A stretch of DNA of 64,000 nucleotides from Wenjunlia tyrosinilytica (GTDB lineage Bacteria > Actinomycetota > Actinomycetes > Streptomycetales > Streptomycetaceae): NCBI RefSeq assembly GCF_014646055.1, contig NZ_BMMS01000031.1, positions 1 to 64,000 of the forward strand, read 5' to 3'. The position numbers were made by a program, and so were the translations under genes. Below, one piece after another: positions 12,030-17,286 of the stretch. How positions within the stretch are numbered: position 1 is the stretch's first letter; each line of letters opens with the position of its first letter. The notes beneath the pieces were generated by a model. It was not told the origin of the DNA and ran no database searches. It worked only from the letters and a program-made list of their open reading frames with translations.

Positions 12030-12863
12030 ATGCCGATGTCACCGTCTCGCGCCGCCGCTGTCGTGATGGCCTGCTTCGCCGCCCTGCTGGTGGGCCCCGC
12101 GCCCGGCGCCCGGGCTCATCCCGCACCAGCCCATGGCCAACTCTCCAAAGCACCAAGGGAGTTCGTCGCCCTGCGCGATGTGGATCCGTCCATCCTCCAG
12201 GACATCCGCTACCGCGGCAGGCACAACTTCGTCGGCCGTCGTGTCGTCGGATACCGGCAGCCGATGTGCATCCTGACCCGTCCCGCAGCCGAGGCGCTCC
12301 GCGGCGCTCAGCGGGTGCTCCTGCGCAAGGGCTACACCCTCAAGGTCTACGACTGTTTCCGGCCGCAGCGGGCCGTGAACGACTTCGTGCGCTGGGCCGA
12401 GGACCTCGGCGACGAACGGATGAAGGCGGAGTTCTATCCGCGCGTGGACAAATCGGCGCTCTTCCGGGACGGCTACATCGCCGAGAAATCCGGACACAGC
12501 CGCGGCAGCACCTTCGACATCACGCTGGTCCGGCTGCCGGTGCGGCCGCAGCCCCCTTACCATCCGGGGAAGCCGCTGAAGAGCTGCTTCGCCCCGGTGG
12601 ACGAGCGCTTCCCCGACAACACGGTGGACATGGGCACGGGGTTCGACTGCTTCGACACGCTCGCCCACACCGCCGATCCAAGGATCACCGGGGCCGCCAG
12701 GGCCAACCGGGACCTGCTGAAGGACACCCTCGACGCGGCCGGGTTCACCAACTACCCGAACGAGTGGTGGCACTACACGCTGAGGAATGAACCCTTCCCC
12801 GACACGTACTTCGACTTCCCCGTCTCCCGGCGCTCCCTCTTGTCCCCGGCCGTCGGGCCGTAG
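12030..12863 (+). CDS. Secreted D-Ala-D-Ala dipeptidase (VanX-type, peptidase M15D)
   Basis: Zinc peptidase (277 aa) predicted to cleave D-alanyl-D-alanine outside the cytoplasm. The signal peptide spans about residues 1-30, ending near PGARAHP. The metal-binding motif SGHSRGSTFD gives His156 and Asp163, and the catalytic EWWH gives Glu245 and His248. Export argues for cell-wall peptide recycling rather than cytosolic vancomycin resistance, since VanX itself is cytosolic. The start at 12030 (MPMSPSR) is followed six bases later by another ATG, and either is possible. Its last 91 bases overlap the convergent PurA-like gene. Confidence 0.9.
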   Translation: MPMSPSRAAAVVMACFAALLVGPAPGARAHPAPAHGQLSKAPREFVALRDVDPSILQDIRYRGRHNFVGRRVVGYRQPMCILTRPAAEALRGAQRVLLRKGYTLKVYDCFRPQRAVNDFVRWAEDLGDERMKAEFYPRVDKSALFRDGYIAEKSGHSRGSTFDITLVRLPVRPQPPYHPGKPLKSCFAPVDERFPDNTVDMGTGFDCFDTLAHTADPRITGAARANRDLLKDTLDAAGFTNYPNEWWHYTLRNEPFPDTYFDFPVSRRSLLSPAVGP

Positions 12864-14092
12864 GACTCGAGGACGACGGGCGCGCGGAGTACGTCGCCGA
12901 CAGCGTCGGACCAGTCGTCGGGGCCGGGGACGCGGTGCTCGGCGGGGGTCGCCCGCATCAGTCGCCGGGTCAGCCGAGCGCGGCTGTCGAGGTCTCCTTC
13001 GGGTCCCGTGGGCAGCCGCCGCACGCGTTCGCCGTCGATGTCGTAGCCGGTGACCAGGCGCAGTCCGGGTGAGCGCCCCGGTGCGTCGAGGTGGGTGAGG
13101 GCCAGGGCGTCCACTCCCCCGCAGACCTCCAGGGCGTAGGCGTGGGCGACGGCGTCGAAGTGCCCGATGCGGAAGGCGCCTTGCCAGGGTCCGTGCCCGT
13201 TGTGCGGCTCGGGCAGCGAGACGGCGAGCTCAGGGTCCTCCGTCGGCAGCGGGCCGGGGCCGTGCCGGGTGGTGTAGGCGCGGACCACACCGAGGCGCAG
13301 CGCGCAGCCGGGCTGCCCGGCTTCGGCGAGCAAGGTCTCGGCAGGGGCGAAGGTGGTCGTGGACCAGGTCGTGTAGGGGTGGAAGCCGTGCCACTCGTCG
13401 AGGAGCACCCCTTGGGCGCCCTCGAAGACGACGGGGCCCCGGCGCAGCAGCCGCGCGAGGTGGCCGTCGTCCACAAGGGCGACGGCGTCGGCGAACGCGA
13501 CGAAGGCCGCGACGCAGTCCTCGACGGCCGGGGCGTCCAGCGGGCCGAGCTCGCCGGTGAGCCGGTCGCGCAGACGGGTGAGTTTGCGGCGCAGTACGGC
13601 GGGTTGCGCGCAGTCGCCGGCGGTGGGGGCGTCCACGGGGTGCTCGAGCGCGTAGGAGGCGGTCTCCCCGATGCCCATGCCGCATGAGCCGTGCCGGGCG
13701 GCTCCCCTGGCGAGCTCCCTCGTCCGGTTGGCGGCCGCGTGGTACGGCGTGGTCAGCAGGGCGCGGCGGTCCACGGTCAGCAGGTCCAGGGCACCGGGGA
13801 CGCCGACGGCGGTGAGGTGGCGGGCTTCGGCGGCGAGCGCGAGCGGGTCCACGAGCATGAACCGGGACAGGTGCGTCGCGGTGCCCGGGGTGAAGCCGCC
13901 GGAGCCGAACTGGGCGAAGGTGTGGTGCCGGCCGTCGGGGGTGACGACGTTGTGGGCGGCCTGGGCACCTCCGTTGAAGCGGACGACCGTGTGGACCGGC
14001 CCGCCCCCACCCCAGGGGTGGGCGCAGAGCCGGTCCACGACGGTGCCCTTCCCGGCATCGCCGTGGCCGAGGTCGACGACGATGGTGTGCAC
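12773..14092 (-). CDS. Divergent adenylosuccinate synthetase homologue
   Basis: PurA-fold ligase (439 aa). The P-loop reads GHGDAGKGT where PurA has WGDEGKGK, so the catalytic Asp is kept but Glu is lost. YTTRHGPGPLPTE matches the PurA core. However, the aspartate-binding loop (TTGRxRRxGW in PurA) reads GPWQGAFRIGHFD, and the guanine-binding TKLD reads THLD. GGHNAGH reads GGAQAAH. I infer a purine-nucleotide-dependent ligase with a changed amine donor and perhaps a changed nucleotide, not housekeeping purine synthesis. GTG start, overlapping the vWA stop codon by one base (TAGTG), so translation is coupled. Last gene of the four-gene operon; it overlaps the dipeptidase gene by 91 bases. Confidence 0.8.
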   Translation of the reverse strand: MHTIVVDLGHGDAGKGTVVDRLCAHPWGGGGPVHTVVRFNGGAQAAHNVVTPDGRHHTFAQFGSGGFTPGTATHLSRFMLVDPLALAAEARHLTAVGVPGALDLLTVDRRALLTTPYHAAANRTRELARGAARHGSCGMGIGETASYALEHPVDAPTAGDCAQPAVLRRKLTRLRDRLTGELGPLDAPAVEDCVAAFVAFADAVALVDDGHLARLLRRGPVVFEGAQGVLLDEWHGFHPYTTWSTTTFAPAETLLAEAGQPGCALRLGVVRAYTTRHGPGPLPTEDPELAVSLPEPHNGHGPWQGAFRIGHFDAVAHAYALEVCGGVDALALTHLDAPGRSPGLRLVTGYDIDGERVRRLPTGPEGDLDSRARLTRRLMRATPAEHRVPGPDDWSDAVGDVLRAPVVLESYGPTAGDKRERRETGKSKYVSGKGSFLSV

Positions 14093-15111
14093 TACAGCCT
14101 CGTGGTGGTGGACGGCCCGTGGTCGGCGCCGTCGTGCGACGAGGGGTCGATCAGCGGGGAGTCGCTGACGGCGATCGTCGCCCGTTCCCGGCCGAGGGTG
14201 GCCAGCGCGCGCCCCACCGAGTCGCCCGCCGTGGAGCCGACGTCGGCGAGGTCCTCGAGGCCGGCCTCGAGGTCGATCGCCTCTTCGCCGAGCCCGATGG
14301 TCAGGGCGATGGTCTCGCAGACGGCGTCGAGGTCGTCGAGTTCGACGACGTTCTGGCCGAGCAGTCCCTGCCAGCGCTGGAGGATGTCGGTGTTGCCGAC
14401 ATGGCTCGCGCCCTGCGGCACGATGAAGTACACGTCGAACTTGCGGCGCAGTTCGGCCAGAATCGCGGTCACGGGGATGTCGGCCTCCAGCGTGTCACCG
14501 AACACCTCCCTCACCTCACGGGCCTTGACCTTGCCGTACGGCATCTCGTCGCCTATGAGGAAGAGGTAGCCGCGGCGTCCGCGCTTCTCGTGGCAGTCCA
14601 GGGCGGTGTGCCTGGCCATGGCGTACAGGGCGAGCTCGTAGGACTCGGTGAGCTGCCCGCCTCCGCCGCCTTCGAGCAGGATGTTGCCGAGGTCGTCGTC
14701 CATGCGGTTGTCGGACTCGAACTGACCGAGTTGGAGCGGCACGCGGTCGCAGGTGGCGTCGCCGACGGCGCCGAAGAGGATCTGCGGGTGCTCGACGTAT
14801 CCCTTGCGCAGGATCAGTCCGAACAGCGAGGGCAGCTTGGTCTGCAGGATGCGCGGCACCGACCGCATGGAGCCGGTGACGTCGAAGATGACCGAGATGG
14901 CCAGTGAGGTCGGGTGCTCGTCGCAGTCGCGGCTCTCCCTGACCTTGCCGCCCTTGAGGGCGGCGGGGTCGAGGGAGGGGTGGGCCTTCCAGTCGCGGCG
15001 GGGCGCGGAGGCGGTGACCCGGTCGCTGTAGTCGAAGGCGCTCGCTCCCGAGGCGGCGCGGTAGTCGGCGGCGGCGGTGTAGACATCGGTGGACCAGCGT
15101 CCACTGCCCAT
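14092..15111 (-). CDS. von Willebrand factor A domain protein
   Basis: Cytosolic vWA protein (339 aa) with no signal peptide. The metal-ion site appears as FDVTGSM (DxTGS form) near residue 78. A Gly-rich turn follows (EGGGGGQLTESYELALYAMA), then the strand YLFLIGDEMPYG. An acidic C-terminal tail follows. vWA proteins usually bind partners through the metal site, so it may bridge the pseudokinase and the PurA-like enzyme in the same operon. GGGGGAG lies upstream of the ATG. A 112-base gap with five degenerate 18-bp repeats separates it from the pseudokinase gene. Confidence 0.82.
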   Translation of the reverse strand: MGSGRWSTDVYTAAADYRAASGASAFDYSDRVTASAPRRDWKAHPSLDPAALKGGKVRESRDCDEHPTSLAISVIFDVTGSMRSVPRILQTKLPSLFGLILRKGYVEHPQILFGAVGDATCDRVPLQLGQFESDNRMDDDLGNILLEGGGGGQLTESYELALYAMARHTALDCHEKRGRRGYLFLIGDEMPYGKVKAREVREVFGDTLEADIPVTAILAELRRKFDVYFIVPQGASHVGNTDILQRWQGLLGQNVVELDDLDAVCETIALTIGLGEEAIDLEAGLEDLADVGSTAGDSVGRALATLGRERATIAVSDSPLIDPSSHDGADHGPSTTTRL

Positions 15112-15135
15112 GGTGTTCTCCCCCTGAGTGATGCG

Positions 15136-15235
15136 GTTCGGTTGGCGCGTGCGTTCGGTTACCGCTTGGTGTTCGGTTACCGCTTGGCGTCCGCGTGGTG
15201 TTCGGTTGGCGAGTGATGTTCGGTCAGCGCGTGGT
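15136..15235. repeat. Degenerate 18-bp repeats between pseudokinase and vWA genes
   Basis: Five copies beginning GTTCGGT(T/C) start at 15136, 15153, 15171, 15200 and 15218. Two of them share GTTCGGTTACCGCTTGG. Spacings are 17, 18, 29 and 18 bases. The last copy runs into the 3' end of the pseudokinase gene. Confidence 0.8.
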
Positions 15236-16219
15236 GAAGGGCCGGAAGGTGCGCGGCCCGTAGAGGCGTTCGAGCAGGTCGTCCAGTTCGGCCAGGAGCT
15301 TCCAGGCGTCCTGCGGACGGCGCGCCTGGGCGGGAAGGGTGCAGCCGCGCAGGAACGAGCGCAGCGGCCGCGGGGCCAACGGACCCATCAGGTGCTCCAG
15401 GCACTTGGACGCCAGATGGATGTCGGTGGCGGCGGTGGCGGGGCGGCGTCCGGTGACCTCGTGCGGGTACCAGTCGCGGTACCGCTCCACGAGAGCCGGA
15501 ATTGTCTGCTCTCCCCCGGCCTCCACCGAGTAGCACCAGTCGACGAGTGCCAGCCCGTGGTGGTGCGGATGGACGAGGACGTGGTCCGGCAGGACGGCAC
15601 CGTGCACCACGCCCGCGCGGTGCGCCCAGCCGAGGGCGACCAGGAGGCGGCGCCACATCCAGGCGGCGTCGCGCGGATCGAGCCCCTCGGGGTGCGCGGA
15701 ACGGACTTCGGTGAGGGTGCGGAACCCCCTCAGTCGCTCCAGGGCGTTGACCCTGCGCTCGGCCCCCGCCCCCGACTCCCGGTGCCGGAATGCCTCGAGG
15801 AGCCTGGGCGCGTAGGCACGGTGCCGCGGATCGCCCCGGCGGTCGAGCCGGGTGAGGGCACGGGCCTCACGCTCCATCAGGTCGTTGTCCCGGGACTGGC
15901 GGGGAATCTTCAGCAGGATGCCGTCACCGGCCTCCCTGAGCACGGCGAGGTCGCCGCCCACGTGGACGGGGCCGAGGGTGTAGGTGCGGGTGGAGGTCGT
16001 GAGGGTCGGCGCCTTGCGGCGCTCCCACAGCGTGGTGAGGGCGCGGAAGGCGGCCTGTGCCTCGTCCTTGCGGTGGTCGGGTACGGCGTCGGGGTGGAGC
16101 AGCCGGGCGAGCCGGTGGTAGCGGCGGGCGGCGGTGGCCCCGCCGCCGGGGAAGAGGTCACCGGGCGTGGCGGCCGCTTCAAGGAGAGCCAGCGCGTCGT
16201 CCAGGGTCACCGGGTTCAT
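15224..16219 (-). CDS. J-domain / pseudokinase fusion
   Basis: Protein of 331 aa. The N-terminal 75 residues resemble a DnaJ domain: YHRLARLLHPDAVPDHRKDE holds the HPD triad, followed by AFRALTTLWERR. The rest is a protein-kinase-like fold with a beta-3 lysine (GILLKIPR) and helix-C Glu (MEREARALTRL). The catalytic loop reads VVHGAVLPDHVL where kinases have HRDLKPANVL, so the catalytic Asp and the metal-binding Asn are both missing; the DFG position reads VDW. I infer a nucleotide-sensing or scaffold pseudokinase that may recruit an Hsp70 through the J domain. It overlaps the Nudix gene by ATGA. Confidence 0.8.
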   Translation of the reverse strand: MNPVTLDDALALLEAAATPGDLFPGGGATAARRYHRLARLLHPDAVPDHRKDEAQAAFRALTTLWERRKAPTLTTSTRTYTLGPVHVGGDLAVLREAGDGILLKIPRQSRDNDLMEREARALTRLDRRGDPRHRAYAPRLLEAFRHRESGAGAERRVNALERLRGFRTLTEVRSAHPEGLDPRDAAWMWRRLLVALGWAHRAGVVHGAVLPDHVLVHPHHHGLALVDWCYSVEAGGEQTIPALVERYRDWYPHEVTGRRPATAATDIHLASKCLEHLMGPLAPRPLRSFLRGCTLPAQARRPQDAWKLLAELDDLLERLYGPRTFRPFTTR

Positions 16220-17220
16220 CGAACGTCGTCCTCCCGGTCGGGCCGCAGCAGTGCGGGGTGCAGGAGCCGGGCGTCGCCCGCCCGGTAGAGGCGGGCTCGG
16301 GGTCCGCCCCGGCTGCCGCCCCGCTCCGCGGTCGCTCCGGTGCTCTCGACGAAGCCGGGCACGGAGAGCACCTTGCGGTGGAAGTTCCCCGCGTGGAGCT
16401 TGCCGCCCCACACCGCCTCGTAGACGGCGCGCAGTTCGGAGACGGTGAACTCCTCGGCCAGGAACGCCGTCGCCAGCGGGGTGTACTCGATCTTGGACCG
16501 GGCCCGGTCCAGCGCGTCGGCGACGATCCGGGCGTGGTCGAAGGCGAGCCGGATACCGCTCGGTGGGGCGGTCGGCGCCGGGACGCCGGTGGGCACCGGG
16601 ACGTCGGCGGGCGTCGGTGAATCCGCGGGCGTCGGTGAATCCGCGGACCGGCGGGCAGGGCCACCCCCGTGGGTCCCGCCTCGCCGGTCCCGCTCGGTGG
16701 GACGTCCGACGCCCCCCGAGGGTTGTGGTGCCTCGCCGGGGTCCGCTGGGTCCACCGCGGTCCCGCCGAGGTCGAGTTCGTCCACCGGGATCCACGCGGC
16801 CGCGACGGCGTCGGTGCCCGCGCGCGGGTCCGGGAGGTCCGGTGCGAAGGCGAGGTATGCCACGGAGACCACGTGCATCCGCGGGTCGCGGTCGGGGGTG
16901 CCGTAGCTGCCCAGTTGTTCGAGGTGGACGCGGTCGAGGGCGGTGTCGGTGCCGAGCCCGGTCTCCTCGGCGAGTTCACGGGCAGCCGCCCGGTCCAGGC
17001 TCTCCTGCCCGGCGCGGACGAAACCGCCCGGCAGCGCCCAGTCCCCGGCGAACGGCGGTCCGCCGCGGCGGACGAGGAGGACGTGCAGCCTGCTCTCACG
17101 CAGTGTCAGAGCGACGACGTCACAGGTCACGGCGACCCGCTCGAAGGCGCGCGGGTCGTAGGAGGCCAGCCATTCGGCCTCGTCCGGCCTGCCGGACCCG
17201 CGGCGCTCAGTGCCCTCCAT
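16216..17220 (-). CDS. NrtR-like Nudix transcriptional regulator
   Basis: Protein of 334 aa with an N-terminal Nudix domain (about 25-150) and a C-terminal winged helix (about 235-330). The winged helix has the NrtR-type stretch AEEFTVSELRAVYEAVWGGK and HAGNFHRKVLSVPGFV. The Nudix box GGFVRAGQESLDRAAAREL has one residue more than the canonical spacing before the first Glu, so it may sense rather than hydrolyse. NrtR proteins bind NAD-related metabolites such as ADP-ribose. A Pro/Thr/Ala linker with an 18-bp internal repeat joins the domains. First gene of the four-gene operon; nested inverted repeats lie in its promoter. Confidence 0.85.
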   Translation of the reverse strand: MEGTERRGSGRPDEAEWLASYDPRAFERVAVTCDVVALTLRESRLHVLLVRRGGPPFAGDWALPGGFVRAGQESLDRAAARELAEETGLGTDTALDRVHLEQLGSYGTPDRDPRMHVVSVAYLAFAPDLPDPRAGTDAVAAAWIPVDELDLGGTAVDPADPGEAPQPSGGVGRPTERDRRGGTHGGGPARRSADSPTPADSPTPADVPVPTGVPAPTAPPSGIRLAFDHARIVADALDRARSKIEYTPLATAFLAEEFTVSELRAVYEAVWGGKLHAGNFHRKVLSVPGFVESTGATAERGGSRGGPRARLYRAGDARLLHPALLRPDREDDVR

Positions 17221-17247: not shown

Positions 17248-17286
17248 GTTGTTCTCATAGTGAGTATTTCTCGAACTGAGAAGAAC
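17248..17286. promoter_or_regulatory. Nested inverted repeats in NrtR-like promoter
   Basis: TTGTTCTCA (17249-17257) and TGAGAAGAA (17277-17285) form an inverted repeat with one mismatch. Inside it are two smaller ones, CTCA-TAG-TGAG (17254-17264) and TTCTC-GAACT-GAGAA (17268-17282). The stretch is clearly richer in A/T than its surroundings and lies 30-65 bases upstream of the NrtR-like start. It is probably the operator of the operon and may also act on the divergent DUF962 gene. Confidence 0.6.

Follow-up and report, generated by a model that had tools for sequence, protein, structure and literature searches.

A gene module pairing a vWA protein with a divergent PurA-like enzyme in bacteria and phages

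Few described systems resemble the genes presented here, and each does so in part. Predicted ADP-ribosylation-response systems centred on an ADP-ribosylglycohydrolase (ARG), regulated by NUDIX or WYL proteins and provided with a vWA-type chaperone and occasionally with NADAR, are set out in passages of Iyer et al. (2022; PMC9503650). In cluster C mycobacteriophages, a kinase and a PurA-like gene are counted among those conserved in all C1 phages, annotated gene by gene in passages of PMC9476963. Here, we describe a four-gene operon of Wenjunlia tyrosinilytica (Streptomycetaceae) that encodes a PurA-like ligase homologue, a vWA protein, a J-domain pseudokinase and a NUDIX regulator. It lies within positions 1 to 64,000 of contig NZ_BMMS01000031.1, and this whole stretch of 64,000 nucleotides (nt) is hereafter called the window. 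Comparison with bacterial and viral relatives places a tightly linked vWA and PurA-like gene pair at the core of this module, which looks like an ancient and widely exchanged system with a seemingly neofunctionalised PurA at its heart.

Linkage of the four genes in bacteria and phages

The bacterial set comprises the best 80 of 415 confirmed PurA-like relatives from a collection holding one genome per species (84,980 species). In these actinobacterial loci, the vWA gene adjoins the PurA-like gene in 80/80 cases, the kinase gene occurs in 75/80 and the regulator gene in 78/80, the kinase match in the other two starting about 100 nt from a contig end. All four genes are found in 73 loci and share one strand wherever they are present. 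Computed gaps between genes lean negative, as the script took the first start codon after a stop as the start of each open reading frame (ORF). Because the quartet is conserved in 73 of the 80 relatives, a chance arrangement can be excluded. The first-pass annotation had let its proposal hang on whether the four genes are kept together in related genomes, and they are, the vWA and PurA-like pair without exception. Five actinobacterial loci (L015, L016, L022, L039 and L054) carry the regulator, vWA and PurA-like genes with no detectable kinase.

Among Streptomycetaceae, the vWA marker was detected in 61 of 394 genomes, the window's own genome included; 29 loci fetched with short flanks from the vWA-positive genomes contained the PurA-like gene in 29 cases, the regulator in 28 and the kinase in 27. 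A sample of the phylum gave 2/396, one being the window's own genome, a figure that is possibly an undercount as the initial scan scored only five candidates per genome. The distribution of the module among bacteria is patchy. The vWA and PurA-like pair was also found in alpha- and betaproteobacteria. Plasmid records hold the quartet with a divergent regulator in Rhizobium leguminosarum, Agrobacterium vitis and Acetobacter, and with a NUDIX gene downstream in Rhodococcus and Tsukamurella, where the NUDIX and winged-helix matches (Rhodococcus) or the winged-helix match (Tsukamurella) fall below Pfam cut-offs. Variovorax has the kinase, vWA and PurA-like genes, the regulator not being found there by profile, and a Rhodovulum plasmid (L318:6101-9029) has the regulator, kinase and vWA genes with no PurA-like gene found nearby. 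Because the partners recur in different gene orders, a functional unit accounts for them better than the shared ancestry of one locus. The Rhodovulum vWA gene is annotated as a TonB receptor, and this locus is possibly a decaying copy.

Phage copies of the module were first indicated by strong PHROGs matches for three of the four window proteins (phrog_1211, 5e-72; phrog_2971, 1.6e-75; phrog_3043, 4e-51). Across 50,697 phage records, relatives of the vWA protein were identified in 208, of the kinase in 190 and of PurA in 226, the last figure including some canonical or PurZ genes. Most occur in Mycobacterium phages; phages of Rhizobium and Vibrio likewise carry relatives of vWA and PurA. The phage Breeniome (L083) carries the kinase, the vWA gene, a 90-residue ORF and the PurA-like gene in a row, and the vWA gene adjoins the PurA-like gene in Rhizobium phage Y65 and Vibrio phage Va1.

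Two samples of IMG/VR viral contigs were drawn, with at least eight contigs in common, some near-copies, many fragments and sizes from about 4 to more than 400 kb. In the first, the best 80 of 223 relatives found with the vWA profile, a PurA-like gene lies within 3 kb of the vWA gene on the same strand in 77 contigs, the other three being near contig ends, and a kinase gene within 3 kb in 46. The second was drawn in the opposite direction, with distant PurA-like proteins as queries, and holds the best 80 of at least 521 relatives. It showed a nearby vWA gene in 78 contigs and a nearby kinase gene in 32; the two contigs outside the vWA count are L262, where a vWA ORF lies 0.6 kb off on the opposite strand, and L290, at a contig edge. 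What the first-pass description of a four-gene set had missed is that the core consists of the vWA and PurA-like genes, that the kinase and the regulator are dispensable, and that the module is widespread in phages. Distances among vWA proteins and among PurA-like proteins are correlated (Mantel rho 0.66 for 77 viral loci and 0.51 for 80 bacterial loci, permutation maxima below 0.1), as is also expected from common descent alone. In a quick tree, the viral PurA-like sequences are more diverse and the bacterial ones fall among them in at least two places, which suggests that phages may be the reservoir of the module, the rooting not being firm. A small coiled-coil-like ORF with no Pfam match was observed 5' of the vWA gene (e.g. 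L294:4144-4530) in 41/80 contigs of the second sample and 9/80 of the first.

In the window itself, the same-strand quartet and the gene identities given by the first-pass annotation were borne out by ORFs, Pfam and predicted folds (Table 1). Its claim of tight coupling stands for two of the three junctions, where regulator and kinase overlap by ATGA and the vWA and PurA-like genes by TAGTG, and fails at the kinase-vWA junction, which is a 112-nt gap. Four degenerate 29-nt direct repeats (window positions 15144-15237) span the kinase stop codon and this gap. Matches above Pfam cut-offs were obtained for PurA (cut-off 27), NUDIX (75 bits) and NrtR_WHD (44 bits, cut-off 27). The DnaJ and protein kinase matches of the kinase protein are sub-threshold, and the Pfam scan gave no match for the vWA protein; both identities were settled by the predicted folds, of MIDAS/I-domain and protein-kinase type. 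A canonical PurA, 36% identical to the PurA-like protein, is encoded on contig C6 of the same genome, so the window gene is an extra copy. The ten flanking frames, several of which are possibly not genes, matched only GH31, ECH and M15 in Pfam.

Table 1. Operon features and their coordinates in the window
Feature	Position	Strand	Basis
PurA-like GTP-dependent ligase homologue, 439 aa	12773..14092	-	PF00709 200 bits, phrog_1211
vWA/MIDAS protein, 339 aa, phrog_2971 family	14092..15111	-	phrog_2971, predicted MIDAS/I-domain fold
J domain + pseudokinase, 331 aa	15224..16219	-	HPD motif, kinase fold in model
NUDIX + NrtR-type winged-helix regulator, 334 aa, probable autoregulator	16216..17220	-	Pfam
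Operator TTCTC-N5-GAGAW-N-WWCTC-N4-TGAGA	17253..17282	-	32 nt 5' of regulator start codon

The PurA-like enzyme, its partners and its regulator

The PurA-like proteins of the module were aligned in 166 rows, representing 160 distinct sequences and numbered after E. coli PurA, and compared with 29 canonical rows (2 named enzymes and 27 taken from 30 fetched loci; one of these, L212, repeats the canonical enzyme of the window's genome). Asp13, the P-loop Lys16 and His41 are kept in 166/166 module rows, and Gln224 (164/166), Thr239 (163/166) and Asp333 (163/166) in nearly all. We take Asp13 to be the general base, His41 the acid and Arg143 a phosphate-site residue in PurA, with Asp333 presumably setting guanine specificity and Thr301, Arg303 and Arg305 binding aspartate, as in the E. 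coli literature. This last set is where the module departs: Arg303 is kept in 1/166 rows and Arg305 in 0/166 (two gaps each), both being present in 29/29 canonical rows, and Thr301, likewise kept in 29/29 canonical rows, is mostly aromatic (W, F or Y), the aspartate loop being replaced mostly by a W/F/Y-Q-G motif. The cross-dimer Arg143, found in all 29 canonical rows, is mostly His or missing (kept in 6/166), and Val273 is replaced by His in 164/166. Among the distant phage proteins of the second viral sample, TRHG occurs in 74/80, TRVG in 0/80 and a strict form of the Q-G loop motif in 63/80. The cross-dimer arginine and the aspartate-binding loop of PurA are described in passages of PMC11276676. 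Two other candidate markers were set aside: the change of N38 to Gln, found in 164/166 rows of the first set and, as a strict motif, in only 45/80 of the distant phage sample, and Arg131, which is Arg in only 20/29 canonical rows.

Profile scores give a similar picture. The PurA-like protein scores 152 bits against a cut-off of 402 with the NCBIfam PurA equivalog and 20 bits against 300 with the PurZ model (NF038379), and its family profile reaches as much as 230 bits with solved PurA structures, against 37-54 bits with PurZ-type chains (the 6fko group, which we take to be PurZ). A quick tree built from 80 rows places the module proteins on one side of a branch with support 99 and 16 canonical enzymes apart from them; the search was a fast one with long branches, and PurZ sits on a very long branch of unsure placement. 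On this sequence comparison, the PurA-like family is a clade separate from canonical PurA. It looks like neither ordinary PurA nor PurZ, because the catalytic residues and Asp333 are kept and the aspartate-binding residues are lost. An ordinary PurA isozyme was rejected on residues, scores and tree, as was PurZ, Asp13 being present in 166/166 rows and replaced by Ser in phiVC8 PurZ. Several phage members, among them those of NC_054716 (Cane17), Breeniome and L316 (pv27), are named '2-aminooxy adenylosuccinate synthetase', like phiVC8 PurZ; the module sequences lack PurZ features despite that product name. The simplest reading of these residues would be that GTP-dependent activation of a 6-oxopurine is retained and that another amine, perhaps also another nucleotide, is used. 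The first-pass annotation had proposed a regulated ligase with an unusual nucleotide-linked product; the changed nucleophile pocket fits such an enzyme, whose substrate and product are predictions. These active-site changes argue against the PurA-like enzyme complementing a purA mutant.

The model of the vWA protein (pLDDT 90) has a fold like the integrin/CD11b I domains, and the strict MIDAS pattern D-x-T/S-G-S is present in 153/160 vWA copies. A search of the family profile against solved structures, made by sequence, found none. In the kinase model (pLDDT 95), a helix-HPD-helix unit at the N terminus accompanies a fold of protein-kinase type, and HPD (residues 42-44) is flanked by helices 27-41 and 48-69; H42 is kept in 68/75 and D44 in 69/75 actinobacterial copies. 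The HRD Asp is Ala in the window protein. The proposal that the kinase is dead proved sound, the HRD Asp being absent in 82/82 bacterial and named-phage copies (75/75 actinobacterial and 7/7 other) as well as in 43/47 IMG/VR copies, the remaining four of which lack the VAIK Lys and the DFG Asp. To judge from these motifs, nearly all copies, perhaps all, would be pseudokinases, most of them with a J domain, and these J-domain pseudokinases are probably adaptors to DnaK.

A NUDIX domain followed by an NrtR winged helix was identified in the window regulator and in the Agrobacterium and Rhodovulum copies. The operator could be counted in 67 of 78 regulator loci, 11 being dropped for lack of the start motif or of sufficient upstream sequence. 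It occurs upstream in 64/67 at two or fewer mismatches and in 67/67 at four or fewer, the sequences counted including some that had served to derive the pattern; the background minimum is six mismatches among 181 sequence windows. The W. tyrosinilytica site has no mismatch and is the single site genome-wide at three or fewer mismatches, the plus-strand row of the genome scan being the same palindromic site. The regulator probably controls its own promoter. The first-pass annotation had assigned it to the NAD-metabolite type, which was not confirmed: it scores 108 bits against a cut-off of 400 with the NCBIfam ADP-ribose-responsive repressor, its operator differs from the mycobacterial NrtR palindrome (in passages of PMC6800001), and the only site found in the genome is at its own promoter. 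An NrtR governing a NAD regulon was rejected on this single site, targets with weaker sites being possible. Inspection by eye shows a degenerate NUDIX box in the copies from Rhodococcus, Tsukamurella and Agrobacterium, and the ligand-sensing NrtR of M. smegmatis likewise has a degenerate box (in passages of PMC6800001). Because the box is degenerate in some copies, sensing is favoured over hydrolysis as the shared function. In Rhodococcus and Tsukamurella (L086, L090), the palindromes TTTTAGTC-N5-GACTAAAA and TTTCTAGTC-N5-GACTAGAAA were seen by eye right before the kinase start and are candidate operators of another type.

Genomic neighbours and possible functions

Our preferred reading, to which we assign a probability of roughly 0.4, is that of an accessory system exchanged between phages and bacteria and built on a near-obligate vWA and PurA-like pair, to which a J-domain pseudokinase and a NUDIX-winged-helix autoregulator would have been added in most bacterial copies. 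The NUDIX protein would repress its own promoter through the conserved operator and be released by a ligand of the nucleotide-diphosphate type, such as ADP-ribose or a metabolite of the pathway itself. Like PurA, the PurA-like enzyme would transfer phosphate from GTP to the 6-oxo group of a purine nucleotide; an amine other than aspartate would then displace this phosphate, and the outcome would be either an unusual purine conjugated at N6 or the removal of a harmful purine. Through metal-dependent binding by the vWA protein and recruitment of DnaK/Hsp70 by the J-domain pseudokinase, these two partners might help to present or assemble the enzyme, or else its target. A phage-host conflict around NAD and ADP-ribose would be the setting; a role in stress or defence we, like the first-pass annotation, can only infer. 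A more specific version is somewhat less probable: the PurA-like protein would be a third functional branch of the adenylosuccinate synthetases, coupling a 6-oxopurine nucleotide to a non-aspartate amine with GTP (or undoing a purine adduct of the ADP-ribose type) in an obligate complex with the vWA protein, with the help of the J-domain pseudokinase, under the switch of a metabolite-sensing NUDIX repressor and on both sides of a phage-host conflict over NAD and nucleic acids.

Neighbouring genes point weakly to NAD/ADP-ribose and damage to nucleic acids. Thirteen contigs of the first viral sample carry NADAR, and in 6 of them it is no more than 8 kb from the module (1.94 expected, P 0.004). 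At cut-offs of 2.5, 4 and 8 kb, with distances worked out by hand, P is 0.018, 0.001 and 0.004, and 0.08, 0.004 and 0.007 without L128, a relative of L127. NADAR overlaps the PurA-like or kinase gene in L194, L170 and L128 and the PurA-like gene in L288, and precedes the vWA gene by about 1.1 kb in two Vibrio phages. A divergent NADAR gene was also observed beside the regulator in two actinobacterial metagenome-assembled genomes (L066:6577-7209 and L023:1547-1936), the L023 frame covering only the end of the domain. In L143, the NUDIX-winged-helix, vWA, NadM-like, NAMPT, PurA-like and kinase genes follow one another, and NADAR lies some 2 kb beyond them; Pfam sees the NUDIX part of the NadM-like gene, and the remainder was recognised by eye. 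NAMPT was found near the module in 4/80 phage loci, with no background comparison; this proves little alone, because NadV is reported in 33% of jumbo phages.

Other neighbours, each checked against Pfam with one representative, were found in the 160 phage loci: R2K ATP-grasp in 27, an ATP-dependent ligase in 27, HAD_SAK_2 in 21 and TROVE in 13. The R2K gene (e.g. L280:7183-7944) starts within 610 nt after the PurA-like gene in 26 of its 27 loci and within 130 nt in 16, and overlaps it in some; R2K.2 and R2K.3 families are linked to ARG genes in passages of PMC4431377. In bacteria, neighbours were clustered for 27 of the 80 loci (ORFs of at least 200 aa within 6 kb), and, apart from the four genes with their antisense frames, no family recurred in more than 10 of these 27. 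The same GH31 gene flanks the module in 23/80 relatives and an M15 gene in 10/80, on which count a mobile island at the window site was dropped as an idea.

Several points weigh against the accessory system in phage-host conflict that we prefer. NADAR is rare, being found in 6/80 contigs of the first viral sample, 1/80 of the second (within 6 kb) and 2/80 bacterial loci; the window operon has none, its genome carrying NADAR on contig C16. The distance test was run after the pattern had been seen, with P 0.08 at 2.5 kb without L128. A single phage group may account, through its gene order, for the R2K, HAD_SAK, ligase and TROVE neighbours, and the GH31 flank looks like a stable chromosomal place and not a mobile defence island. 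PADLOC returned nothing for the PurA-like and vWA proteins and only partial, low-scoring matches for the kinase and NUDIX proteins. As judged from its sequence, the NUDIX protein could possibly act as a hydrolase, its core RELxEETG being intact in 76/78 actinobacterial regulators, with the full canonical box in 25. What computation establishes is the linkage of the genes, the folds, the residues kept or lost, the conserved operator and the abundance in viral contigs, whereas repression and its ligand, the use of GTP, the substrate and product, the phenotype and the roles as chaperone and in conflict are predictions.

Among the alternatives, it is unlikely that the operon makes a small nucleoside signal or antibiotic-like metabolite for the cell itself, with no part in phage conflict. 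The GH31 flank and the presence of the operon in Streptomycetaceae and Micromonospora agree with such a product, and a PurA-type ligase with a self-regulating sensor would suit a dedicated metabolite; however, the 27 bacterial loci clustered yielded no extra partner in more than 10, and hundreds of relatives in viral contigs would be unexpected. Less likely again is an accessory of RNA repair or modification, in which the target of the PurA-like enzyme would be a 6-oxopurine, either within damaged RNA or at the end of an RNA. It draws on the HAD_SAK_2 (named for RNA-repair proteins), TROVE/Ro, ligase and R2K genes near the phage copies, but these occupy a minority of the 160 phage loci, were seen in 0/5 annotated bacterial loci viewed, and perhaps reflect one phage group.

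That a PurZ-like enzyme made an altered purine deoxynucleotide for phage DNA, and was later taken over by bacteria, has the precedent of PurZ among PurA paralogues, the product name shared by several phage genes and the many relatives in viral contigs in its favour. The low PurZ score, a family profile that favours solved PurA, the retained Asp13 and a placement apart from the very long PurZ branch nevertheless make it improbable, and a phage DNA pathway would leave a self-regulated chromosomal operon with a J-domain pseudokinase unexplained. A GTP-driven switch without ligase chemistry, in which a GTPase-like sensor is held by the vWA and J-domain proteins, could explain why the GTP site is kept, the amine site lost and the partners of chaperone type, but a mere switch would not need the invariant Asp13 and His41, and we consider it very unlikely. 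An ordinary second adenylosuccinate synthetase, suggested by PF00709 membership and the intact P-loop, Asp13, Lys16 and His41, is hardly credible given its score, the near-constant loss of Thr301, Arg303, Arg305 and Arg143, and the canonical purA elsewhere in the genome.

The preferred accessory system aside, these data reveal a large and separate branch of an enzyme family credited with one or two reactions; in this branch the catalytic core is intact and the amine site is replaced, and the tie to a vWA partner is almost fixed, in bacteria as in phages. The PurZ-type database names on phage copies, which the residues do not support, could prompt false predictions of 2-aminoadenine DNA. With an operator, an apparently single-target regulator and a tractable host (M. 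smegmatis and its cluster C phages), the pathway is directly testable.

Comparison with known systems

TerY-type systems associate a vWA protein, a kinase and a phosphatase; no phosphatase gene was seen in the module, in a comparison that went no further than this. The statement that no described system has this composition agrees with the literature searched, of which coverage is incomplete and in which no paper on the combination was found. Term searches for adenylosuccinate and PurA gave nothing in PMC9503650, PMC7824862 and PMC7159879. The NrtR/AraR regulators have in common with the module regulator the NUDIX and NrtR_WHD architecture and a palindromic operator at their own promoter, whereas the module has another operator, a single genome site and no NAD biosynthetic gene in the operon. 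Cluster C mycobacteriophages hold kinase, vWA and PurA-like homologues in one cluster, as in the module, and in passages of PMC9476963 these are neither presented as a system nor tied to bacterial operons.

PurA shares with the PurA-like enzyme its fold, P-loop, Asp13, Lys16, His41, Gln224 and Asp333. In contrast to PurA, the module enzyme has a changed aspartate loop, Arg143, Val273 and often Asn38, and scores below the equivalog cut-off. PurZ of the 2-aminoadenine phages is likewise a phage-borne PurA paralogue with changed specificity, and shares its product name with some module genes. Yet the module family is nearer to PurA and keeps Asp13 and Asp333, both absent in phiVC8 PurZ, and its PurA-like gene is nearly always accompanied by a vWA gene, none being annotated in the phiVC8 record.

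Pfam found no ADP-ribosylglycohydrolase or phosphatase gene in the four-gene operon or in the ten frames scanned on its flanks. The ARG-centred systems outlined in passages of PMC9503650 nonetheless have in common with the module a NUDIX-HTH regulator, a vWA or other chaperone and an occasional NADAR. The enzyme of those systems is an ADP-ribosylglycohydrolase, whereas that of the module is PurA-like and has many phage copies. By analogy, the module could work like the ARG-centred systems, of which it is not a member.

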